Source of the DNA: an uncultured Actinomycetes bacterium
Lineage (GTDB): Bacteria > Actinomycetota > Acidimicrobiia > Acidimicrobiales > RAAP-2
Direction of reading: 5' to 3'
DNA length: 49,794 nucleotides
Assembly (NCBI GenBank): GCA_903825765.1
Contig: CAIKBU010000082.1
Location: 1 to 49,794 of the forward strand
Made by a program: the position numbers and the translations under genes. Positions 32,899 through 44,241 of this stretch are shown here, piece after piece; the first letter of the stretch is position 1; the number at the start of each line of letters is the position of its first letter. The notes under the pieces were generated by a model that was not told the origin of the DNA, searched no databases, and saw nothing but the letters and a program-made list of their open reading frames with translations.

Positions 32899-35037
32899 AT
32901 GAAGTCACTCGCCCGTTTTGCCGTCACCAAGCGTTGGTTTGTCATCGCCCTGTGGCTCGTCGTTGCAGTTGGCATCAACGTAACCGCCGGTGCCCTCGGG
33001 AATCACTACTCCAACTCGTTCCAGTTACCGAAGACGAACTCCACGCTGGCCCTCGAACTTATTAAGTCGGCGCACTCTTCCCAGGTCACCGCCGGTGAAA
33101 GCGATCAGATTGTCTTCCAGACCACGACCGGTACCGTCGCCGATCAGCAGTCAACTATCGACCCCGTCTTGGCGAAAATCAGGGCGCTTCCGGGTGTTGC
33201 CTCGGTGATTGCGCCCTACGACCCCACCGCGCGTGGGCAAGTCAGCCCCGACGGCACGATTGCCTTTGCCGTTGTCAACTTCAAGTCGGCGGCCAATCTG
33301 ATTCCCGCGGCGTCCATCACCGCCCTCATCAAGGACGCCACCACGTTGCGGGGCGCCAACTTGGCCGTTTCCGAAGGTGGCGACGCAATCGCCAACGCCA
33401 CCCAGCCCAAGGGATCACCGGGTGAAGGCATTGGTCTGCTCGCCACCGCCATCGTCCTCATCGTGGCCTTCGGTTCGTTGATGGCCATGCTGCTGCCCCT
33501 CGGTGTGGCGCTCTTCGCTATCGCCATTGCTTCGGCGGCCACTACCTTGCTGAGCCACGTGGTGTCGATTGCGCAGTTCGCTCCCATCCTTGGCTCGCTC
33601 ATTGGTCTGGGCGTCGGCATCGATTACGCCCTTTTCATCGTGACTCGCACCCGCCAGAATCTCCAGCAGGGCATGAACGTGGAAGACGCCATCGTGTCCT
33701 CAATCAATACGTCGGGCCGGGCCGTGATGTTCGCGGGAGCCACGGTCTGCGTCGCACTCTTGGGAATGTTGGCGCTCGGCTTCGGCTTCTTGAGTGGCCT
33801 CGGTGTTGCCGCCTCGACCACGGTGGTCATCACCATGTTGGCGGCGGTGACCTTGTTGCCCGCGCTCCTCGCCTTCTGGAAGACCACTATTTTGAGCCGC
33901 CGCGAGCGTCGAGCGTTGGCCGCGAACGGTCCCGCGTTAGCTGAGCAAGATGGTGGATGGCAGCGCTGGGCGGAACTTGTCGCCAAGCGACCGAAGAGTT
34001 TTTCCTTGGCCGCCCTCGTCGCCATCGCACTCTTCGCCGCGCCGGTGTTGTCGCTGCAACTCGGTCTTTCTGACGCCGGTTCGAACCCCGCGGGTTCCAC
34101 CACGCGCGTCGCGTACGACACGCTCGCCAAGGGCTTCGGTGCAGGCTCAAATGGCCCACTCGAAATCGTCGGCAAAGTAACCAACGCCAGTGATCGAACT
34201 GCCATGGCGACGCTGTCGGCCAACCTGTCGACCAACAGCAATGTCGCCTTCGCCAGCCCACCTTTTCCCCTCAGCGCCACCGTTGAGTTGATCAAAGTGG
34301 TCCCGAAATCGGCACCGCAGGCCAAGGCCACCGATGACCTCATTACCGCCATTCGTACCACCTACGTGCCGGCCGTGACCGCCCAATCACACACGGCAAT
34401 CTACGTTGGTGGCGCCACCGCCATTGGTATGGACTTTGCGAGCAAGCTCGACTCGAAGATTCCGCTGTTCTTGGTCATCATCGTGGTGCTCGGCAGCCTG
34501 CTCCTCATGATCGCCTTCCGCTCCCTTCTCATTCCATTGACCGCAGCCTTCATGAACCTCTTGGCGGTCGCTGCCTCGTTTGGTCTCGTGGTGGCGGTCT
34601 TCCAGTGGGGCTGGGGTAGTTCGTTGATTGGCTCGGGCGCTGGGCCGGTCGAGGCCTATCTGCCCATCATCATGATTGCCATTCTCTTTGGTCTTTCGAT
34701 GGACTACCAGGTCTTCCTGGTGTCGCGCATGCACGAAGAGTGGAGCCACACCAAGGACAACGAGCTGGCCATCGTGCGCGGCCAGGCCTATACCGGCCGC
34801 ATCATTACCGCGGCCGCCTTCATCATGGTCTGCGTGTTCTTCTCCTTCGCCGTCGGTGGTCAGCGCATTATCGCTGAGTTCGGTATCGGTCTGGGTGGCG
34901 CAGTACTAATCGACGCGTTCGTCATCCGCACCGTGCTCGTTCCGTCGCTCATGCACTATTTCGGCAAAGCCAACTGGTGGATGCCCGCCTGGCTCGACCG
35001 CGTGATACCGAACGTGGCCCTCGAGGCGGGCGAGTAG
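32899..35037 (+). CDS. MMPL-family (RND superfamily) exporter
   Basis: The start is ATG 32899, giving 712 residues; an open frame further upstream reads into the guaB3 region and is not used. There is an N-terminal membrane helix (about 14-35), an extracellular loop domain (about 40-175), a bundle of five helices (about 180-330), a linker, a second helix and loop (about 370-540) and a second bundle (about 540-690) ending near DRVIPNV. GVGIDYALFIVTR and GLSMDYQVFLVSRMHEE are the paired MMPL signatures. Substrates of this family include lipids and drugs; none can be assigned here. It is divergent from guaB3 across 145 bases. Confidence 0.85.
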   Translation: MKSLARFAVTKRWFVIALWLVVAVGINVTAGALGNHYSNSFQLPKTNSTLALELIKSAHSSQVTAGESDQIVFQTTTGTVADQQSTIDPVLAKIRALPGVASVIAPYDPTARGQVSPDGTIAFAVVNFKSAANLIPAASITALIKDATTLRGANLAVSEGGDAIANATQPKGSPGEGIGLLATAIVLIVAFGSLMAMLLPLGVALFAIAIASAATTLLSHVVSIAQFAPILGSLIGLGVGIDYALFIVTRTRQNLQQGMNVEDAIVSSINTSGRAVMFAGATVCVALLGMLALGFGFLSGLGVAASTTVVITMLAAVTLLPALLAFWKTTILSRRERRALAANGPALAEQDGGWQRWAELVAKRPKSFSLAALVAIALFAAPVLSLQLGLSDAGSNPAGSTTRVAYDTLAKGFGAGSNGPLEIVGKVTNASDRTAMATLSANLSTNSNVAFASPPFPLSATVELIKVVPKSAPQAKATDDLITAIRTTYVPAVTAQSHTAIYVGGATAIGMDFASKLDSKIPLFLVIIVVLGSLLLMIAFRSLLIPLTAAFMNLLAVAASFGLVVAVFQWGWGSSLIGSGAGPVEAYLPIIMIAILFGLSMDYQVFLVSRMHEEWSHTKDNELAIVRGQAYTGRIITAAAFIMVCVFFSFAVGGQRIIAEFGIGLGGAVLIDAFVIRTVLVPSLMHYFGKANWWMPAWLDRVIPNVALEAGE

Positions 35038-35042
35038 CTCCC

Positions 35043-35660
35043 TTGTCGTACCTTCTCAGCGTTACTAGTTCAACCCGAGGCGACCAGTCGTGGTCGAACC
35101 GCGTCCTTCGTGCGTTCCTCGAATCCTTCGTTGCCCAGCACCCCGACCTCGATTGTCGCGAACGTGCCACGCTCGAGGTTCCCCATCTCGACCTCTCCGC
35201 CCAGCGGGCCGGTCGCATCCCCGTCGCCGACCAGTCGCCACAGGAAGCTGCCGCCTTCGCGCTGGCGGCCGAGCTCACTGGAGAACTCGAGCAGGCCAGT
35301 GCCCTCGTTCTCGCGACGCCCATGTACAACTGGGGCCCGCCAAGTTCACTTAAAGCCTGGATTGACCACATCGTGAATGTTCAGACCTTTTACCGACCCA
35401 GTGGACTCCTCCACGGATTACCCGTGACGTGCATTGTGGCCAGTGGTGGCTTCTATAGCGAGGGGACCAACGTGGCCCACGACCATCTGCGACCATTGCT
35501 GCGCGAAATTTTCTCGCGCATCGGAGTCGACGACGTTGCCTTTATTGACTGCGATCCCACTGGCCCGATGGACCGGGGGCTCCTCGATCCAAACGATCCC
35601 ACCAGTGGGTTTCAGCGAGCACTCGCCCAAGTGCCAGCGGCGGCCTCGCGTCGTCGCTAA
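35043..35660 (+). CDS. FMN-dependent NADH-azoreductase-like flavodoxin-fold reductase
   Basis: The start is TTG 35043, five bases after the MMPL stop codon, giving LSYLLSVTSSTRGDQSWSN, the phosphate-binding opening of the AzoR/NQO-like fold, and 205 residues. The flavin-binding loop reads PMYNWGPPSSLKAWIDHI and a second loop is ASGGFYSEG. The likely activity is two-electron reduction of quinones or azo compounds. The tight spacing suggests co-transcription with the exporter. Its stop codon overlaps the convergent RpiR gene by three bases. Confidence 0.8.
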   Translation: MSYLLSVTSSTRGDQSWSNRVLRAFLESFVAQHPDLDCRERATLEVPHLDLSAQRAGRIPVADQSPQEAAAFALAAELTGELEQASALVLATPMYNWGPPSSLKAWIDHIVNVQTFYRPSGLLHGLPVTCIVASGGFYSEGTNVAHDHLRPLLREIFSRIGVDDVAFIDCDPTGPMDRGLLDPNDPTSGFQRALAQVPAAASRRR

Positions 35661-36511
35661 CGCTGCGCGTGGAGCGCAAGGGCATCCCACTCGCGCATAC
35701 GTTCGGACCCCGCGGTACCGAGGTGCTGCACGACTGACCACGTCAGGCACTCAACGAGGGCCAAGGCGGTCAATGACGTATCGAACGGTGACGGGACGTC
35801 AACCGGGACTGGAAGAACAATGTCGGCGTAGCTGGCGGCTGGGCTGAGCCACAGGTCCGTTACCAGGATGACTTTGGCGTGACGTTGGTGGGCTGTTTCA
35901 ACAACCTTCACGGTCTCGTCGTCGTAGCGACGAAAGTCAAAGGCGACGAGGACGTGCTTTGACGAGAGATCTAACAAGGATGCTGTGCGACGACCGGGGT
36001 CTCGAGACAGGACCGAGACATCGCGGCGAGCGCGCGCGATGTAGGTGGCGAACATTTCGGCCCACGCCTGCGACACTCGCCCACCCACCATCGTGACGCG
36101 GTGGTGGGGATGCGTCAGCAACGCGACGGCCGCGTCGTACTCAGCTACTGGCACCGTTTGGGCAATCGAGGCCACCGAGTTCGCGAGTGCGGCGGAGAGC
36201 CCACTCAAAATACCGCTCTCGGGATCCACGGCCGACGCGAGTCGCTGTCGCGGACCCGCTTCACGAGTCGAAAGCTCCGACAAGAGCGCGGCATGAAACG
36301 AGGCAAATCCGTCAAAGCCAAGTTTCTGCACGAGTCGCACCACCGACGCCGTTGACGTCTTGGACTCCGTCGCGAGTTCACTCACGCCCGTCAGACCGGC
36401 GGCCGGGTAGCGCGCCATCAAGGTGTGCGCCACCTTCTTTTCGGTGGGCGTCAGTGTCGAAAACGACCGACGGACGAGCTCGATAACGGTGGTTGGCGAC
36501 GTGGTGGACAC
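35657..36511 (-). CDS. MurR/RpiR-family transcriptional regulator (HTH + SIS)
   Basis: The 284-residue protein has an N-terminal RpiR helix-turn-helix (about 5-80, LTPTEKKVAHTLM, TGVSELATESKTSTASVVRLVQKLGF) and a SIS domain (about 115-270, VTMVGGRVSQAWAEMFATYI, VLVAFDFRRYDDETVKVVETA). SIS domains in this family usually sense phosphosugars, but other ligands occur. The start is GTG 36511, 9 bases after the amidotransferase stop codon. It probably controls the divergent GS-like operon, because the shared upstream gap has repeated half-sites. Confidence 0.88.
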   Translation of the reverse strand: MSTTSPTTVIELVRRSFSTLTPTEKKVAHTLMARYPAAGLTGVSELATESKTSTASVVRLVQKLGFDGFASFHAALLSELSTREAGPRQRLASAVDPESGILSGLSAALANSVASIAQTVPVAEYDAAVALLTHPHHRVTMVGGRVSQAWAEMFATYIARARRDVSVLSRDPGRRTASLLDLSSKHVLVAFDFRRYDDETVKVVETAHQRHAKVILVTDLWLSPAASYADIVLPVPVDVPSPFDTSLTALALVECLTWSVVQHLGTAGSERMREWDALALHAQR

Positions 36512-36520
36512 AACGTGAGG

Positions 36521-37351
36521 TTACGACGAGGGGGCGGCGAAGGCGATTGTCGATTGGAGCACGCCCGTGTCGAGGGACCAGACACTCGCCGTCCCTCGCT
36601 CGGGCGCGACGTCAATGATTGCGTCGTTCAGTTGAGTCGTCCAACCGTCAACCGCCACGCCGGTGGAGGCCACGATGAAACCCCCATCACGAATCGTGTA
36701 GCGAAGGTGGTAGTAATTCTCGTCGTGCCCCTCGGGAAGGCCCTCGTCACCCGCGGCCCGTTGCAGGGATTTGACTGGGGCTGGCGTGGTGGCCACGGCC
36801 TGGACTGCGAGGAGTCGACCGGGGCTCAGCAAGAGGCAGTTCAGCGAACCGAGGCCACAGGTTTCACGAATGATCGACACCGCGCTGCGCACTCCCGACA
36901 CGATGTCGCCGTGTCGCTGCGCTTCTTGCATAATCAGCTGAAAGTACAACTCGGAGTCAGTCGTGCCTTCGAGCGCCGCACGACGATCGTCACTGAGGAT
37001 ATCGAGCAGTCGCTCGGGGTGCTGAAACGACCCGTTGTGAGCGAAGGACCACTCCCCACTCGTGAACGGGTGCGTGTTTTCGATACAGACGGGGAGTCCG
37101 GCGGTCGCCCAACGAAGGTGGACGATGCCAGCGGTGGCCGGCGCCGACGCCACGGTGAAAAAGTTCGGGTCGTCGATGGCGCGGTGAACAGAATTGACCT
37201 TTTCAATCCCCGCGTCACTTTCCCAGACCGCTGCACCCCATCCATCGCCGTGGAGGGTCGACATGTCGCGGTACTTCGTTAATTCATTCGGAGTTAACAA
37301 GGCGCCAATTGACGTTGATTCCTTCGAAGCGAAGGCGAGTAACCGGCACAT
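36521..37351 (-). CDS. Class II glutamine amidotransferase-like hydrolase (EgtC/YafJ type)
   Basis: The 276-residue Ntn-type domain begins with the exposed catalytic Cys (MCRLLAFASKE). HGDGWGAA, IVHLRWAT and THPF...WSFAHNGS are the class II glutaminase segments. There is no synthetase domain, so it is a free hydrolase. EgtC of this family removes gamma-glutamyl groups, and in this context it could release glutamate from a gamma-glutamyl intermediate; that is inference. ATG 37351 has a GAGGGG site. It is divergent from the GS-like gene and precedes the RpiR regulator. Confidence 0.82.
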   Translation of the reverse strand: MCRLLAFASKESTSIGALLTPNELTKYRDMSTLHGDGWGAAVWESDAGIEKVNSVHRAIDDPNFFTVASAPATAGIVHLRWATAGLPVCIENTHPFTSGEWSFAHNGSFQHPERLLDILSDDRRAALEGTTDSELYFQLIMQEAQRHGDIVSGVRSAVSIIRETCGLGSLNCLLLSPGRLLAVQAVATTPAPVKSLQRAAGDEGLPEGHDENYYHLRYTIRDGGFIVASTGVAVDGWTTQLNDAIIDVAPERGTASVWSLDTGVLQSTIAFAAPSS

Positions 37352-37380
37352 ACGACCCCTCTACGGCTATTCAATGCAAA

Positions 37381-37442
37381 CAGAGACTGTTTCTGTCGTC
37401 TATCGTACACGAAAGCAGAAAATTTATGTTTCTGAACAGAAC
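37381..37442. promoter_or_regulatory. Half-site array in the divergent RpiR-regulon gap
   Basis: The 108-base gap between the amidotransferase and GS-like genes holds CAGAGA (37381-37386), TTTCTG (37390-37395), CAGAAA (37416-37421), TTTCTG (37429-37434) and CAGAAC (37437-37442). They form overlapping inverted repeats, including TTCTG-AA-CAGAA. This density suggests an operator, most simply for the RpiR protein of the locus. No clean -35/-10 pair was identified. Confidence 0.5.
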
Positions 37443-37459
37443 TATTCAGAGGAGGTGGC

Positions 37460-38815
37460 GTGCTAGATCAACCAATGCCCTCGCTGAGCGATGACGCCAT
37501 CGCGACCCTCGTCGATGAGTGGCGAGCCCAGGGCGTAACGGGGCTTATTGGTACCTACGTTGACAACGGCGGTGTCGTGCGCGCCAAGCAGGTCCCCCTC
37601 GACCGCGTCGCCGCTTTTCACCGTAACGGCCTCGGCGCTTCGTACTCGTGGGCCATGTTCTGCATCGATGACGCACTCCCCATGACGCCCTACTTCTCGG
37701 TGGTGGGTGATATGCGCATGAAGGCCGACCTTTCGGCGGCTCGCGTCCTCGGCAACGGTCTCGCCTGGGCCCCACTGTGCCTGTTCAACCAAGATGGCTC
37801 ACCGCTCGAACACTGCCCACGCGGTTCGCTCCAACGTCAGGTGACGGCTCTGGCCCTCGACGACCTCACCGCGCGCAGCGCCTTTGAAATCGAATTCACC
37901 GCCTTCGACGCTGCCACCGGTGAAGTCGGGACCGGCGTCGCCTACGGTCTGCGCGCCATGATGGATAACGAAGCCTTTTTCACTGGCATCGTTTCCGCCT
38001 TGACGACTGCCGGCATACAGGTCGAGCAGATTCACGCTGAAGCCGGTCGCGGACAGATTGAACTCTCCACCCCACCGCTTGATCCCGTGGGGTCCGCCGA
38101 CGCACTCGTAGTTACCCGACTCGTACTGTGCCGCGTGGCCCGCGAACACGGCAAGTTGGTCTCGTTCGCGCCCCAGGCCCTGACCGACGGTATTGGGAGC
38201 GGCGCCCACATTCACGTGAGCCTGACGCGCAACGGTGTGCCGATTTTCTCTGGTGGGGATGACGTTCGCGAATTGACTACCGACGGGGCCCACGCCATTG
38301 GGGGCATCCTGGCCGAACTACCCAACGCCTTGGGTATTTTGGCACCCTCCCTCCTCTCCACCGCCCGCTTGCAGGCCGGCAAGTGGTCAGGGGCGTACAT
38401 CTGCTGGGGAGTGGAGAATCGAGAAGCCGCGGTGCGGCTCTGCCAAGCCACGCTCGGCAACCCCCACGGCGCCAACGTCGAGATCAAGGTCACCGACCAC
38501 ACGGCCAATCCCTACGCCGCTCTCGCGGTCATCCTCGGTCTCGCGCACCACGGCATCACCGCTGCCGCGCCACTTCCGCCCGAGGCCCCCGTGGACCCCA
38601 GTGCCCTTCGTGGCACGCCCGAGGCGATTGCCACCTTCGATACCGACCAAGGCCGCAACGTCGCTGCCTCCTGCGCTAGCCCCCTTCTGCGCGAGATTCT
38701 CAGCGACCGTCAACTCGAAGCCATCGCCGCCGTGCGAGGCCACGAGGTGACCCTCGCCGCCAGCACGCCCTATGACGACCTCGTAGTGAAGTTCCGCTAC
38801 GCGTGGTCGTCCTAG
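37460..38815 (+). CDS. Glutamine-synthetase-like gamma-glutamyl-amine ligase
   Basis: The start is GTG 37460 behind an AGGAGG site. The 451-residue protein keeps the GS fold signatures: EIEFTAF (metal Glu), HAEAGRGQIELS, GIGSGAHIHVSL (metal His), YICWGVENREAAVRL and a C-terminal NVEIKVTDHTANPYAAL, where the family's usual Arg before the PD motif is Lys. It is close to the PuuA/GlnA3/GlnA4/FluG-like branch. The permease, aminotransferase and amidohydrolase partners favour ligation of glutamate to an amine over ammonia assimilation. The amine is unknown. Confidence 0.8.
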   Translation: MLDQPMPSLSDDAIATLVDEWRAQGVTGLIGTYVDNGGVVRAKQVPLDRVAAFHRNGLGASYSWAMFCIDDALPMTPYFSVVGDMRMKADLSAARVLGNGLAWAPLCLFNQDGSPLEHCPRGSLQRQVTALALDDLTARSAFEIEFTAFDAATGEVGTGVAYGLRAMMDNEAFFTGIVSALTTAGIQVEQIHAEAGRGQIELSTPPLDPVGSADALVVTRLVLCRVAREHGKLVSFAPQALTDGIGSGAHIHVSLTRNGVPIFSGGDDVRELTTDGAHAIGGILAELPNALGILAPSLLSTARLQAGKWSGAYICWGVENREAAVRLCQATLGNPHGANVEIKVTDHTANPYAALAVILGLAHHGITAAAPLPPEAPVDPSALRGTPEAIATFDTDQGRNVAASCASPLLREILSDRQLEAIAAVRGHEVTLAASTPYDDLVVKFRYAWSS

Positions 38816-38865
38816 AAGAGGCAACCATTCGGACCAGGTAGGACCGAGTTAATAAAGGGGGATGT

Positions 38866-40371
38866 ATGAGCCAATCAACAACTGACCAGGCGACCAAGCC
38901 TCGTCGCAATCTGTCCGTGTGGGGGGCCCTCGGTCTCTCCCTGGGCATCGTAGGCCCGAGTTTGGCCATGTCCGGAAACGGGCAGGGCACCGCGGCCGCA
39001 GTCGGCAAGGCCGTACCACTGATCTTCGTGCTCGGTGGTCTGTGTATTCTGCTGATTAGTCACGGGTTTATCCGCCTCACCCAGCGCTACAGCCAGGCCG
39101 GGTCAGCGTACGCCCTCGTGGGTAAGACGCTGGGTCCACGCGCCGGATACTTCTCCGGATGGGGCGTCATGATCACCTACCTCTTCTTCGCGATCGGTAA
39201 CGTCGGCGCCATTGGGAGCTTCGTCAACGCCTTCTTGGCCAACGCCCAGAACTCGGCCCACCCCACGCAGGTGCCGTGGCTCGTGAGCGGTGGCATTGGC
39301 CTCGCACTCACCGGCTTCATGGCCACGCGCGAATTCCGCTCAGTGGTGCGCACCCTGCTCATCATTGAAGGTATCGGCGTCGCTTCGATGACCATCTTGA
39401 CGTTGGTGATTTACCTCAAGGGCGGCAATGCTCACCACGGTGGCGTCGACTTCTCGGCATTCAGCTTCAAGGGCCAGAACTTCTCGGGCATCATGGGGGC
39501 CGTCGTCGGCGCTCTCCTCTCCTGGGGTGGCTTTGAAGGTGCGGCCGCGCTCGGCGAAGAGACGTCCGACCCCAAGCGCAACATTCCACGGGCCTTGCTG
39601 ACCACGGTGATCGGCGCCAGCGTGTTGTTCATCCTCGTGATGTTCGCGCAGTCGATTGGTTTCGGTACTGACGCCGCGGGTGTCAAGGCCTTCTCCTCCT
39701 CGGGTAACTCGCTCGCGTCCCTCGGCCACACCTACGTCGGTCAGTGGTTCTCACTCGTTTTGTCTTTCACCGCCATCATGTCGGCCTTTGGCTGCATGCT
39801 CGGTTCGGCTGGCACCGCGGGTCGTTTGCTCTTCGCCTTCTCCCGCGACGGGGTTGGTCCCGCCTCGTGGGGTCGTCTCGACAAGCGCGGGGAGCCCACC
39901 TCGGCCATGACCGCGGTGATCGCGGTCACCCTGGTGATCTCGGTCGTCTCCTTCGTGACCGGCCACCCCGCAATGGGACTGGGCAGTGCGGCCTTGAGTG
40001 ACTACTTCTACTACTCCACCATTGGCGCCATCTGCCTGATGGTGGCGTATCTCATGGTCGAGCTGGGCACCATTCGCCACATTCTCACCGAGCGCAAGGA
40101 ACTCATGAAGGAACTCATCATTCCGATCGTTGGTTCCCTGCTTATCATCGTGGTTTTCTACTACAACGTGAAGTCGCAGACCTCGTGGTTGGCCGCTCCC
40201 TTCGTCGCCTTCGCCGTCATGGCGGTGGGACTTCTCATCGGCCTCGCCACCCCCGGCATTGCCGAGAAGATAAACGCCGGCCTCAATCGCGACCTGTCCG
40301 AGGCCGAGGGCAAGAACCTGCCCGCCTCGTCGGGCCACGGGTCCTCACCCTTCCCTACGACCGAGGTCTAA
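38866..40371 (+). CDS. APC-superfamily amino acid/polyamine permease
   Basis: The 501-residue protein has about twelve membrane segments, with the APC opening LGLSLGIVGPSLAMSGNGQG, the substrate-loop segment GGFEGAAALGEETSDPKRNIPRAL and the soluble, charged C-terminus ending PFPTTEV. The ATG at 38866 has an AGGGGG site and follows the ligase by 50 bases. Homologues import amino acids, ethanolamine or polyamines, and the adjacent GS-like ligase points to an amine substrate. Confidence 0.85.
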   Translation: MSQSTTDQATKPRRNLSVWGALGLSLGIVGPSLAMSGNGQGTAAAVGKAVPLIFVLGGLCILLISHGFIRLTQRYSQAGSAYALVGKTLGPRAGYFSGWGVMITYLFFAIGNVGAIGSFVNAFLANAQNSAHPTQVPWLVSGGIGLALTGFMATREFRSVVRTLLIIEGIGVASMTILTLVIYLKGGNAHHGGVDFSAFSFKGQNFSGIMGAVVGALLSWGGFEGAAALGEETSDPKRNIPRALLTTVIGASVLFILVMFAQSIGFGTDAAGVKAFSSSGNSLASLGHTYVGQWFSLVLSFTAIMSAFGCMLGSAGTAGRLLFAFSRDGVGPASWGRLDKRGEPTSAMTAVIAVTLVISVVSFVTGHPAMGLGSAALSDYFYYSTIGAICLMVAYLMVELGTIRHILTERKELMKELIIPIVGSLLIIVVFYYNVKSQTSWLAAPFVAFAVMAVGLLIGLATPGIAEKINAGLNRDLSEAEGKNLPASSGHGSSPFPTTEV

Positions 40372-40373
40372 CC

Positions 40374-41708
40374 ATGGAACCAGCCGGACTCGATCAAATT
40401 GCCCCCGGGGCCGCCGCCCTCTACCGCCGCGACTTGGCGGCAGTGGCCGGCATCGAGAAGCTCCGCTTCTTCCCGCTCGCGATTGAGCGCGGGTTCGGCT
40501 CCACGTTGGTGGAGGTCGGTGGGCGCGAGCTCATCGACCTCACCGCCACGTGGACCGCGGCCGGTCTCGGCCACGGACACCCCCGCATTGTCGAAGCCAT
40601 CACGCGCGCGGCGGCCTTTCCGCCGGGCGCGGGTGGCCTCTCGGCGGTGCACCCCGACTCCGTTGGTCTGGCTGAGGAACTCTTGGCGCTCGTCCCCGGT
40701 ACCGGTGATCGACGCGTGTACCTCGGTCACGCCGGCTCTGACGCTTGTGATGTCGCGCTGCGCGCCGTTCGCTTCAACTCAGGTAAGCGGCGCCTCGTCG
40801 CCTTCAAAGACTCCTACCACGGTGGCATCGGCTTAGCGATGGCCGCCTCGGGCGTGCACGTCAACGCCGGGGCCACGATCCCCGACCCCGACACCGTCTT
40901 CGTGGACTACCCGAATCCCTTCCGCCCCCCACTCGACGGCACTGATCCCCTCGTCGCCACGCTGTCGCAGATCGAGGAGGCCTTCGCGGTTGGCGACGTG
41001 GCCTGCATCATGGTCGAGCCCATGCTGGCCGACGGTGGCATGGTGGTCCCGCCACCGGGCTTCTTGACCGGCATCGCCGCGTTGTGCGCCCGCTACGACG
41101 TGCTCTTCGCCGTGGATGAAGTCAAGGTCGGCCTCGGCCGGCCGGGCCTGCTGCACGCCTTTCAACTCGAAAATGTCGTTCCCGACATCGTCTGCTTCGG
41201 CAAGGTCATCGGTAATGGGCTTCCTCTCTCCGCCGCCGTCGGGCCCGCCGCCATCTTTGATGGCCCCGCCGCGGCCGCGCTCCTCACGACGGCCGGAAAC
41301 CCCATCTGCACGGCCGTCGGACGTGAGGTACTGCGCGTCTTAGTCGAAGAGGATCTTCCCGCCCGCGCGGCCCGCGCGGGGGAACGACTTCGCGCCGGCA
41401 TCGCCTCGCTTAACCACCCCCGTGTCGGTGACGTGCGTGGTCACGGACTGGCCAACGGTATCGAGCTCGTCACCGACCGTGACACCAACACACCCGACAG
41501 CGCCTACGCGGCGGCCGTGGTCTACCGCGCCTTCGAGTTGGGTGTCTGCGTGTACAAGGTCGGTGGCAATACGCTCGAAGTCACGCCGCCCCTCGTCATC
41601 ACCGACGCGGAAATTGACCGATCAATCGAGATTCTTGAACAGTCGCTCAACGACGCGGCCGCCGGTCTCGTACCGGCCGACGTACTCGCCGCCTACGGTG
41701 GCTGGTAA
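40374..41708 (+). CDS. Class III (PLP) aminotransferase
   Basis: The start is ATG 40374, two bases past the permease stop codon; a longer upstream frame overlaps the permease gene and is rejected. The 444-residue protein has LTATWTAAGLGHGHPRI, the YLGHAGSDACDVALRAVR phosphate-site region, SYHGG, FAVDEVKVGLGRPG (cofactor Asp) and DIVCFGKVIGNGLPLSA with the Schiff-base Lys. It resembles 4-aminobutyrate and omega-amine transaminases. A role in transaminating the imported amine or its gamma-glutamyl derivative is likely but unproven. Confidence 0.88.
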   Translation: MEPAGLDQIAPGAAALYRRDLAAVAGIEKLRFFPLAIERGFGSTLVEVGGRELIDLTATWTAAGLGHGHPRIVEAITRAAAFPPGAGGLSAVHPDSVGLAEELLALVPGTGDRRVYLGHAGSDACDVALRAVRFNSGKRRLVAFKDSYHGGIGLAMAASGVHVNAGATIPDPDTVFVDYPNPFRPPLDGTDPLVATLSQIEEAFAVGDVACIMVEPMLADGGMVVPPPGFLTGIAALCARYDVLFAVDEVKVGLGRPGLLHAFQLENVVPDIVCFGKVIGNGLPLSAAVGPAAIFDGPAAAALLTTAGNPICTAVGREVLRVLVEEDLPARAARAGERLRAGIASLNHPRVGDVRGHGLANGIELVTDRDTNTPDSAYAAAVVYRAFELGVCVYKVGGNTLEVTPPLVITDAEIDRSIEILEQSLNDAAAGLVPADVLAAYGGW

Positions 41709-41734
41709 GACGCCCCCCTACGAAAGTTAGACCC

Positions 41735-42892
41735 ATGACCCACCCCGCCATTGCCGAAGCTCTCAACGAGCTCGCTCTCATCGACCACCACGTACACGGC
41801 ACCCTCCGTGTTGAGCTCGACCGAGAGGCCTTCGAGGACGTCATGACCGAGTCGGATCGCCCTCGTCGGACCGGTACCACCAACTTCGACTCCCAGTTTG
41901 GCCTGAGTGTTCGTCGATTCTGCGCCCCCGTGCTGGGCCTCGAACCCCACGCGAGCCCCGAGGACTACGTCGCCCAACGTCTCGCCCTGGGGTCCACCGA
42001 AGTCAATCGACGACTCCTCTCGGCGGCGCGCCTCGGGGCCATGATTATCGACACCGGATTTGCGACCTCGAAACTGACTGACCTCGTCGAGACGGCCGAG
42101 CTCTCGGGTGCCCCGACGTTCGAGGTCGTGCGTTTGGAGGCGGTCGCCGAGGCGCTCGTGCGTGATGACGTCGATCCCGCCAACTTTGCCGACACCCTCC
42201 GCCGCACCTTGTCGGACGCCGTGGCGAGTGGCGCGGTGGGCTTCAAGTCCATTGCGGCCTACCGCTACGGCCTCGACGTCCCCCACCACCGTCCCCACGA
42301 CACCGAGGTGACCCGCAGCGCGGCGACCTGGATGGCCCAGGCGGCGGCCTCGGGCCACGTCCGCATCAGTGATCCGATTCTGCTCAGTTTTCTCATGTGG
42401 TCGGCAATTGATACCGGCAAGCCCCTCCAGTTCCACATTGGCTACGGCGACTCCGACATCAATCTGTTGCGCGCCAACCCCGCCCTCCTCACCGACTTCA
42501 TGCGCGCCACTCAAGACTCGGGCGCTTCCATCATGCTGCTGCACTGCTACCCCTACCAGCGTGAGGCGGCCTACCTGTCGCAGATGTTCCCCCACGTCTA
42601 CTTCGACATCGGCGAGGCCATCAACTACTCGGGTCTCCAGAGTCGCACCATTATTGGTGAATCACTCGAAATTGGACCGTTCACCAAGCAGCTCTACTCG
42701 AGCGATGGCTGGGGTCCCGCCGAACTGCACTTCGTGGGCTCGCACCTCTGGCGTCGAGGTATGACCGAGGTCTTGTCGTCGTGGGTCGACAAGGGTGACT
42801 GCACGGTGGATGACGCCATTCGCATCGCCACGATGATTGGTCGCGACAACGCCACCGCCGTCTACGGCGTTTCCGGCATCACTCGGGCCTAG
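41735..42892 (+). CDS. Amidohydrolase-superfamily (amidohydrolase_2, FluG N-domain-like) hydrolase
   Basis: The 385-residue TIM-barrel metallohydrolase has the N-terminal HxH motif in LIDHHVHG, FKSIAAYRYG, LQFHIGYGD, LLHCYPYQREAAYLS, VYFDIGEAINYSG and the C-terminal catalytic Asp in YSSDGWGPAELHF. Eukaryotic FluG proteins fuse this kind of domain to a GS-like domain, and here the two halves are separate genes of one operon. It may hydrolyse an amide or gamma-glutamyl product. The gene lies 26 bases after the aminotransferase. Its stop codon overlaps the stop codon of the convergent DUF4260 gene. Confidence 0.83.
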   Translation: MTHPAIAEALNELALIDHHVHGTLRVELDREAFEDVMTESDRPRRTGTTNFDSQFGLSVRRFCAPVLGLEPHASPEDYVAQRLALGSTEVNRRLLSAARLGAMIIDTGFATSKLTDLVETAELSGAPTFEVVRLEAVAEALVRDDVDPANFADTLRRTLSDAVASGAVGFKSIAAYRYGLDVPHHRPHDTEVTRSAATWMAQAAASGHVRISDPILLSFLMWSAIDTGKPLQFHIGYGDSDINLLRANPALLTDFMRATQDSGASIMLLHCYPYQREAAYLSQMFPHVYFDIGEAINYSGLQSRTIIGESLEIGPFTKQLYSSDGWGPAELHFVGSHLWRRGMTEVLSSWVDKGDCTVDDAIRIATMIGRDNATAVYGVSGITRA

Positions 42893-43290
42893 GCGGCGGG
42901 GTCGTCCTCACCCTCTTTGAACAAGCTGCCCAGGTGGGTGTGCTTGAAGTTCGAGTCGTACTTGAGGCCGTACCCGAAAAAGCGGTCCCAGCCGACGTGG
43001 CCCAGCCAGATAATGCCAATGGCGAGCACGGCCACGTGGTGAAAGTGCCACCCGTAGAGGACGACGAGTGACGGTGCCAGGTAGCTGTGGCCGACGTTGT
43101 AGAAGAAGGCACCGACCGTGGTGGACCGCAGGTAGCCCAGCATAAAAATGTCCGGCACGAAGAGCAGCACCACGTAGAGCCACCAGTGCTGGTGGGTCAG
43201 GCGAAAGGTGAGCAGCGACCCCACGAAGAGGACCGCACCGTCAAGACGCAGCCACCACCGTGGCTTGGCGTTAACGAAACCATTCGCCAC
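42889..43290 (-). CDS. DUF4260-family small membrane protein
   Basis: The 133-residue protein has about four membrane segments and the conserved pattern LRLDGAVLFVGSL, FVPDIFMLGYL, GAFFYNVGHSYLAP, WLGHVGWDRFFGYGLKY and THLG. The many His and Asp residues near the membrane surface are typical of the family. Function unknown. The start is GTG 43290, three bases after the upstream hydrolase stop codon, so the two genes are probably co-transcribed. Confidence 0.75.
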   Translation of the reverse strand: MANGFVNAKPRWWLRLDGAVLFVGSLLTFRLTHQHWWLYVVLLFVPDIFMLGYLRSTTVGAFFYNVGHSYLAPSLVVLYGWHFHHVAVLAIGIIWLGHVGWDRFFGYGLKYDSNFKHTHLGSLFKEGEDDPAA

Positions 43291-43293
43291 GAC

Positions 43294-44241
43294 TTAGAGG
43301 CCCGACAAGAAACCGAGGAGGGCGCCGAAGTAGGCCTCCTGGTCGTCGTAGAGGGCCATGTGCGATCCCTCGGGGCAGATGAAACTCGAGCCCTGAGGAA
43401 TTCTGGTGGCCATCATTTCGAGGAACGTCGGGTCCATCGTGTCGTAGCGACCACCCAAGACGAGGGCCGGCACGGCGATGTCCTTCAAGTCCTCGGTGCG
43501 GTCCCAGTCAGCCAGCGTCGCCTCGGGCCACATACCGAGCTCACTCGGTCCCTGCATCTTGATGTAGCAGGCCTGATTGATGGTGGCGAAGGCGTAGTTA
43601 ACCGGCTCGGGCCACTCCTCGGGTGGCATGCGCAAGATGTGGTGCACGTAGTAGGCCTCGACGAGGAGTTCCATGTAGCGCGGGTTCGTAAAGTCTCGCG
43701 CGGCCTCGATGGCGCGAATTTCGGCGAGTTGGTCGGCGTCGACGGCTGGCAACAGCACTTCATTGGCGTAACGGCTGTAGGCCGGCGCTGACGACATCAT
43801 GTTCGAAATAACGACCCCCTTCAACCGATCGCTGTGGCGAATGGCGTATTCCATTGCCAATATTCCACCCCAGGAATGCCCGAGTATCACCAGGTTGTCA
43901 GGTCCCAAACCGAGGGCCTCGCGCACTTGGTCGACCTCGTCAATGAAGCGCTCGAGATCCCAGAGCGAGTCATCCTCGGGGCGGTCACTGCGACCGGAAC
44001 CCAACTGGTCGTAGTAGTAGTACTCAATACCCGCCTGAGGCAGGAAGGAGTCAAAGGCCTCGAAGTAGTCGTGGGTGGCGCCGGGGCCGCCGTGAAGGAG
44101 GAGGACTTTCAGGGCTGGGTTGTTACCAACGCGCTTGGTCCAGACGTTGAACGTGCCGAGTGGGGTGGTCACGGGGATGAGGCGCACACCACCCGAGACG
44201 ACGTCCGTGCGTCCGGTGTGGTCGTAGTAACTCTGGTTCAT
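43294..44241 (-). CDS. Proline-iminopeptidase-type alpha/beta hydrolase (S33)
   Basis: The 315-residue protein has the oxyanion segment LLHGGPGATHDYF, the nucleophile elbow GHSWGG, the catalytic Asp in GGRYDTMDP and the His in PEGSHMALYDD. The HGGPG and GHSWGG pair is characteristic of prolyl aminopeptidases, which remove N-terminal proline, but amino-acid amidases and lactonases share it. The ATG at 44241 has an AAGGAG site. It begins downstream of the groEL terminator hairpin. Confidence 0.85.
   Translation of the reverse strand: MNQSYYDHTGRTDVVSGGVRLIPVTTPLGTFNVWTKRVGNNPALKVLLLHGGPGATHDYFEAFDSFLPQAGIEYYYYDQLGSGRSDRPEDDSLWDLERFIDEVDQVREALGLGPDNLVILGHSWGGILAMEYAIRHSDRLKGVVISNMMSSAPAYSRYANEVLLPAVDADQLAEIRAIEAARDFTNPRYMELLVEAYYVHHILRMPPEEWPEPVNYAFATINQACYIKMQGPSELGMWPEATLADWDRTEDLKDIAVPALVLGGRYDTMDPTFLEMMATRIPQGSSFICPEGSHMALYDDQEAYFGALLGFLSGL

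Follow-up and report, generated by a model that had tools for sequence, protein, structure and literature searches.

What would a bacterium do with a glutamine-synthetase-like ligase, a permease, a class III pyridoxal phosphate (PLP) enzyme, a FluG-type amidohydrolase, an EgtC-like hydrolase and an RpiR-family regulator, all encoded side by side? The question is raised by a locus at positions 35657-42892 of contig CAIKBU010000082.1 (contig C82; assembly GCA_903825765.1), which belongs to an uncultured member of the Acidimicrobiales. The contig was analysed over its whole length of 49,794 nucleotides and is referred to here as the window; its genome comprises 1.75 Mb in 129 contigs and is given as 96% complete. 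An earlier note, made from the sequence alone, had read the locus as one for gamma-glutamyl amine catabolism following the logic of the Puu pathway, with an aminotransferase among its enzymes. The six open reading frames that it had placed here were all found, and Pfam assigns them to the families it had named. The Puu-like reading itself is, on the sequence evidence, best replaced by a gamma-glutamyl-tagged pathway around an enzyme of the alpha-amino-epsilon-caprolactam (ACL) racemase type.

The PLP enzyme (40374-41708, + strand, with its start at ATG 40374) has the class III fold (Aminotran_3). Its top solved match is the ACL racemase 2zuk with 377 bits, and the racemase group of 2zuk, 3dxv, 5m46-5m4d and 6gio spans 377-342 bits, followed by isoleucine 2-epimerase at 242 bits, gamma-aminobutyrate (GABA) aminotransferase at 189, PuuE at 165 and putrescine aminotransferase at 144. 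Within this group, 6gio is an amino acid amide racemase, and the 5m46-5m4d chains, deposited as 'Aminotransferase class-III', presumably represent the ACL racemase of Rhizobium freirei. The equivalents of D210, K241 and K267 (D220, K251 and K277 in the window protein) are kept in 85/85 aligned rows, and those of W49 and Y137 in 84/85 each. In ACL racemase, D210 and K241 form the acid/base pair and K267 is the PLP lysine. Seven distant class III proteins encoded in the loci described below carry Q (five), I (one) or K (one) at the K241 position. Near the presumed substrate pocket, L19, W49, L78 and Y137 are kept, and positions 47, 48, 50, 77, 140, 293, 294 and 296 differ in most of 82 rows. The label 'class III aminotransferase' used by the earlier note is, as judged from these comparisons, a misreading: the fold is class III, and the nearest solved relatives are racemases. 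The enzyme is proposed to interconvert D and L forms.

The genes around the racemase gene recur in other genomes. A search of 100 relatives returned the exact six-gene order in L051 (genome G047) and the ligase-permease-racemase-amidohydrolase core in L052 (G039). When genome contigs were scanned with the racemase alignment, 107 racemase loci resulted, of which the best 80 are considered here; 60 of them extend at least 6 kb before and at least 4 kb after the racemase gene and form the flank-complete set, the 20 loci with short flanks being dropped from the corresponding counts. A gene is called nearby when it lies at most 9.5 kb from the racemase gene. L051 and L052 lie on the same contigs as L068 and L083, respectively, and stand outside the 80; wherever they have the gene concerned, they add rows to the alignments of 85, 82, 63, 60 and 49 rows, and two of the 85 racemase rows therefore repeat others. 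The exact order and orientation of all six genes is found in 39/60 flank-complete loci, namely 33/33 from Mycobacteriaceae together with L066, L067, L068, L070, L126 and L129, and a ligase gene is nearby in 55/60. The arrangement is not due to chance, and the six genes constitute a widely conserved unit. The earlier note had named a lack of co-conservation in other genomes as a refutation of its reading; this outcome did not occur, since the set is co-conserved.

On the racemase tree, which has a number of forks with weak support and some flagged long branches, the rows nearest to the window are uncultured actinobacterial genomes (L063 and L064, with the isolate name Umea), followed by Acidimicrobiaceae genomes. 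A sample of 396 genomes of the phylum held the racemase only in the window's own genome, with four candidates scored per genome shown, so that this result says only that the racemase gene is rare. A contig scan with the ligase alone as query found no relative. Among 118 genomes of the genus of Mycolicibacterium septicum G485 (the genome of L092), the racemase occurs in 17, and the EgtC-like gene in the same 17 and in G509. A gene for an enzyme resembling Orn/Lys/Arg decarboxylases is nearby in 35/60 flank-complete loci, including 28/33 of the Mycobacteriaceae. Its close relatives (at least 73% identity) occur in 13/118 genomes of this genus, all among the 17 with a racemase, and paralogues of 33-38% identity are common.

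A further regularity concerns the hydrolases. Each of the 55 flank-complete loci with a nearby ligase carries exactly one of three unrelated hydrolases, which is EgtC-like in 41, of the M20 family in 8 and N-formylglutamate-amidohydrolase-like (FGase-like) in 6. Each likewise carries exactly one of two amidases, a FluG-type amidohydrolase in 49 and an isochorismatase-like enzyme in 6, and the families of representatives were confirmed. Across all 80 loci, exactly one of the three hydrolases is present in 65 and two are present in none; the four ligase loci with none of them all have short flanks. Six changes of hydrolase type are required on the racemase tree, and the window, L063 and L064 with their EgtC-like gene are sister, with strong support, to L065 and L083, which carry the M20 gene. 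The simplest reading of this pattern is that there would be one slot for removal of a glutamyl tag and another for amide cleavage.

The same families are found on plasmids, where they connect the locus with a characterised racemase. We opened six plasmid regions, which were our own pick from 85 and 84 racemase-matching records with mostly the same organisms in both, and a ligase, an FGase, an isochorismatase and an RpiR gene were present in 6/6. The Shinella zoogloeoides plasmid carries a gene 84% identical to 2zuk, the ACL racemase of Achromobacter obae, in the order RpiR, isochorismatase, ligase, FGase, racemase. On the Pantoea and Klebsiella plasmids, isochorismatase, FGase and RpiR genes are divergent from ligase, APC permease and racemase genes. 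Members of the same families, accompanied by genes for ABC transporters of the branched-chain type, are found on the plasmids of Shinella sp. HZN7, Maritalea and Sinorhizobium meliloti. The racemase was matched by 45 Klebsiella plasmid records, and on a Klebsiella oxytoca plasmid (L144) the ligase-permease-racemase cluster lies between insertion sequences, near arsenic resistance genes.

Taken together, we postulate a regulated, divergently transcribed pathway that would consume an alpha-amino amide or alpha-amino lactam by way of racemisation and gamma-glutamylation, a proposal to which we give about an even chance. Each step is read from sequence and gene context. The compound would be imported by the APC permease, and the ACL-racemase-type PLP enzyme would interconvert its D and L forms so that both are usable. 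The glutamine-synthetase-like ligase would join the gamma-carboxyl group of glutamate to the free amine at the expense of ATP, the FluG-type amidohydrolase would open the amide or lactam, and the EgtC-like hydrolase would release glutamate and the amino acid. In many relatives, the decarboxylase-like enzyme may act on the freed amino acid. Alpha-amino lactams and amides are substrates of ACL-racemase-type enzymes (PMC7431475, PMC6061476), and the neighbouring decarboxylase-like gene argues for a basic amino acid, which would make the compound a lactam or amide of lysine or ornithine, for example alpha-amino-epsilon-caprolactam or 3-aminopiperidin-2-one. More tentatively, and with somewhat less confidence than for the pathway as such, ACL and amino-amide racemases could naturally serve to make both enantiomers of an alpha-amino amide or lactam, most likely one of lysine or ornithine origin, available to gamma-glutamyl-tagged degradation, with a FluG-type amidohydrolase or an isochorismatase-like amidase opening the amide and interchangeable EgtC-like, M20 or FGase-like hydrolases removing the tag. 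In the accessible portions of openly licensed sources we found no cellular role stated for ACL racemase, these texts speaking of biocatalysis or caprolactam, and no description of such a pathway was found in the openly licensed literature on these families combined.

The ligase (37460-38815, + strand; Gln-synt_C, PF00120, 208.6 bits) is, as its sequence supports, not a normal glutamine synthetase. Both ammonia-handling acids, which stand in the FDGSS and TEAPV motifs of a homologue from the same genome (L001, presumably a glutamine synthetase), are replaced; they correspond to Asp50 and Glu327 of glutamine synthetase. The protein also falls below the curated cut-offs of the GlnA I and GlnA III models, and its nearest solved chain is 4hpp, which we take to be PA5508 of Pseudomonas aeruginosa. 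Gamma-glutamyl ligases are stated to lack these ammonia-handling acids, and PA5508 and 2QPX serve as models of the C-half and N-half of FluG, respectively (PMC6478659). A rival reading is Puu-like amine catabolism: the PLP enzyme would transaminate, as a genuine aminotransferase, either a gamma-glutamylated amine or the amino acid formed at the end, with glutamate being removed by the hydrolases. The class III fold, the APC permease and the gamma-glutamyl-type ligase would suit it, as would the best NCBIfam model of the ligase, that of the gamma-glutamylputrescine synthetase PuuA (NF045547), although its score of 193.9 bits lies far below the cut-off of 650. However, racemases score about twice as high as aminotransferases against the PLP enzyme, the K241 position is K in every aligned row compared with Q in five of the seven distant class III proteins, and the six genes include neither an aldehyde dehydrogenase nor an oxidase. 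We consider this alternative unlikely; Puu-type transamination was rejected on the racemase match, and plain glutamine synthetase on the replaced acids. The earlier note had also described PuuB, PuuC and PuuD as lacking. This stands for the locus, since Pfam finds none of them among the six genes, to which the search for PuuB and PuuC was confined; it does not stand for PuuD in the genome, as a PuuD-family class I hydrolase (PF07722, 196 bits) is encoded on contig C48. There, at C48:11715-15156, it lies about 1.9 kb from another glutamine-synthetase-like gene, and this pair is perhaps a more usual gamma-glutamyl amine locus.

Both hydrolases have complete active sites of their type, as far as sequence comparison can tell. 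The FluG N-half type amidohydrolase (41735-42892, + strand), which is predicted to open the amide or lactam, scores 25.3 bits against Amidohydro_2, just under the gathering score of 26.4, and 157 bits against the solved binuclear-metal hydrolase 2qpx. Its model has a predicted local distance difference test (pLDDT) score of 93.9 and matches 2qpx with a template modelling (TM) score of 0.85. H19, H21, K171, Y176 and H234 are kept in 63/63 rows and H270 and D324 in 62/63; the metal ligands, bridging lysine and tyrosine of the FluG N-half are the residues given in PMC6478659, where 2qpx is without a known reaction. The EgtC-like class II (Ntn) hydrolase (GATase_4; 36521-37351, - strand; PF13230, 54.5 bits), our candidate for removal of the gamma-glutamyl tag, keeps its catalytic cysteine C2 and the gamma-glutamyl-binding residues R80, N106, G107 and D132 in 49/49 rows. 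The top fold matches of its model (pLDDT 89.9) are the EgtC structures 4zfk, 4zfl and 4zfj, with 4zfl listed with its natural substrate. The earlier note had recognised a glutamine-synthetase-like ligase, had regarded ligase and amidohydrolase as the two halves of FluG in separate genes, and had called the class II hydrolase EgtC-like; the replaced acids, the top solved matches 4hpp and 2qpx, and the active site and fold bear it out.

A different division of labour between these enzymes seems improbable to us. Under it, removal of the gamma-glutamyl group would fall to the FluG-type amidohydrolase, and a different bond would be cut by the EgtC-like, M20 or FGase-like enzyme. Amidohydrolase and ligase genes also lie together outside racemase clusters (L053, L054 and L055), which, like the lack of a known reaction for 2qpx, would agree with such an exchange; yet L053 and L054 contain the EgtC-like gene as well, and the nearest fold of the class II hydrolase is EgtC, including its substrate-bound structure. 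EgtC cleaves a gamma-glutamyl bond. The clusters L053:5886-15034 and L054:4452-13573 comprise genes for an APC permease, an isochorismatase, an SDR protein, the ligase, the FluG-type amidohydrolase, a further SDR protein and the EgtC-like hydrolase, with no racemase, and are adjoined by a methylaspartate ammonia-lyase gene. In these clusters of a second kind, the ligase-amidohydrolase-EgtC-like trio travels with different middle enzymes.

Detoxification in place of nutrition is also improbable in our view. Glutamylation and ring opening would then inactivate a toxic cyclic alpha-amino compound, perhaps a molecule resembling cycloserine. The patchy occurrence of the racemase, in one of 396 genomes of the phylum sample and 17 of 118 in one genus, and its presence on plasmids, one of which has arsenic resistance genes and insertion sequences close by, are what such a function might produce. 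Catabolism, however, would account for patchiness and plasmids equally well, and the genes for a deglutamylase and a decarboxylase-like enzyme suggest that the product is used further. As its nearest solved fold might suggest, the class II hydrolase could be an EgtC that has strayed from ergothioneine biosynthesis into a chance mixture of genes; this is most improbable and was rejected, because the protein reaches 62 bits against the EgtC model TIGR03442 (cut-off 218.65), no EgtD match was found in the genome by a search that gave a match in only 1/14 control genomes and none over the cut-off, and the gene occurs in 47/80 racemase loci.

Several observations weigh against the proposed tagged pathway, or at least against details of it. 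Ligase genes are not nearby in 5/60 flank-complete loci. For three of these, further genes were found in the same genome: a full second cluster for L073 (L164), ligase, permease, amidohydrolase and M20 genes for L121 (L162), and an isochorismatase-ligase-amidohydrolase-EgtC-like module for L075 (L163); L134 has only a lone ligase (L161) and L071 only weaker ligase matches. Genome G509 possesses the EgtC-like gene and a ligase without a racemase. The loci are not independent, 33/60 in the flank-complete set being from Mycobacteriaceae, and the hydrolase families of the one-of-three partition were chosen after the neighbouring families had been listed. Since one of the seven distant class III proteins shares the DEVK motif, K at the 241 position is not diagnostic on its own. 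The window clade is consistently changed beside the presumed ACL-racemase pocket, for example from A to T at 48 and from G to T at 50, so that the substrate may differ; it is less well supported than the type of reaction. The structures next closest to the amidohydrolase after 2qpx belong to an Amidohydro_2 protein that is uncharacterised and to uronate isomerases rather than to amidases, so that the fold alone does not name the reaction. A decarboxylase-like gene was not found in the window's own genome, and three decarboxylase-like proteins match the lysine decarboxylase model best, with scores far below its cut-off, so that the substrate is not fixed by that route. An isochorismatase-like enzyme would moreover fit a primary amide better than a lactam. 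As for G509, its EgtC-like and ligase genes (L160, G509:C5) are divergent, with no racemase, permease or amidohydrolase matches in the 19.5 kb region analysed.

Within the window, the remaining features are the permease, the regulator and the spacing of the genes. The APC-family permease (AA_permease; 38866-40371, + strand; PF00324, 106.6 bits; PF13520, 103.4 bits), our candidate importer, falls below the cut-off of every specific NCBIfam model. The spaces between neighbouring genes measure 50, 2 and 26 bp on the + strand (four genes) and 9 bp on the - strand (two genes), and spacing this short suggests two divergent operons. The intergenic region of 108 bp between them (37352-37459), which would presumably hold both promoters, contains short repeats and an AGGAGG preceding the GTG start of the ligase. 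A sigma-70 scan of this region gave one match compared with 1.1 expected, with no excess of promoters, and comparison with two relatives revealed no clear shared operator in it. The presumed cluster regulator (35657-36511, - strand) combines HTH_6 (PF01418, 50.5 bits) and SIS (PF01380, 60.5 bits) domains. Sugar-phosphate SIS domains carry SxSGxT at the place where a D-x-x-R-Y loop, such as FDYHRY or FDFRRY, is found in the SIS domain of 60/60 cluster regulators; SxSGx[TS] occurs in 2/60, counted anywhere in the protein and not by place. With this loop instead of SxSGxT, the RpiR family name lends no support to an amino-sugar substrate, and the hint at an amino sugar or phosphorylated amine that the earlier note had drawn from the RpiR/SIS regulator is not supported. 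Sugar-phosphate sensing by the regulator was rejected on the same ground. A flavodoxin-fold/FMN reductase gene (34977-35660) converges on the regulator gene with an end overlap of 4 bp, and only one similar gene was found near the other racemase loci (L099, from Mycolicibacterium komossense). On the other side, at 42889-44241 and on the opposite strand, a DUF4260 gene and a proline-iminopeptidase-family hydrolase gene precede groEL; they are not regular neighbours in relatives.

The locus shares parts with several known systems. Like characterised ACL and amino acid amide racemases, which are its top solved matches, the window enzyme keeps the five residue equivalents named above, and the relative of the A. 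obae enzyme with 84% identity sits in the same kind of cluster; unlike them, its clade is separate on the tree, with changed pocket-adjacent positions. Both halves of the fungal amidohydrolase-ligase fusion FluG are present with the N-half active-site residues kept, but as two genes with permease and racemase genes between them. In PMC6478659, the substrate and pathway of FluG are called unidentified. The logic of ligase, permease and tag-removing hydrolase is that of Puu in Escherichia coli and of GlnA3/GlnA4 in Streptomyces, whereas the six genes here hold a racemase and a FluG-type amidohydrolase instead of an oxidase or aldehyde dehydrogenase. An FGase-family protein is proposed for tag removal as the last step of the Streptomyces ethanolamine pathway (PMC6529630), and this family is also found in the proteobacterial racemase clusters. 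With EgtC, the window hydrolase shares the Ntn fold and the glutamyl-binding residues, in contrast to its score far below the EgtC cut-off and a genome in which no EgtD was found. Hydantoin utilisation by racemase, hydantoinase and carbamoylase (PMC7431475) is similar in logic only, as it racemises, opens a cyclic amide and removes an N-group; in the present case the cell itself would attach the N-group, a gamma-glutamate, and the three counterparts here, racemase, ring opener and EgtC-like hydrolase, come from other families.

As a whole, these observations place a racemase familiar from biocatalysis within a defined set of genes found in Actinobacteria and Proteobacteria and suggest a natural role that can be tested, so that proteins labelled 'aspartate aminotransferase family protein' gain a function open to experiment. 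If the proposed pathway is correct, it would suggest which reaction the amidohydrolase half of FluG may catalyse, and the glutamate tag would be a general handle, removable by several unrelated hydrolases. D-amino amides or lactams would then be a real nutrient, or a nuisance, for these bacteria.

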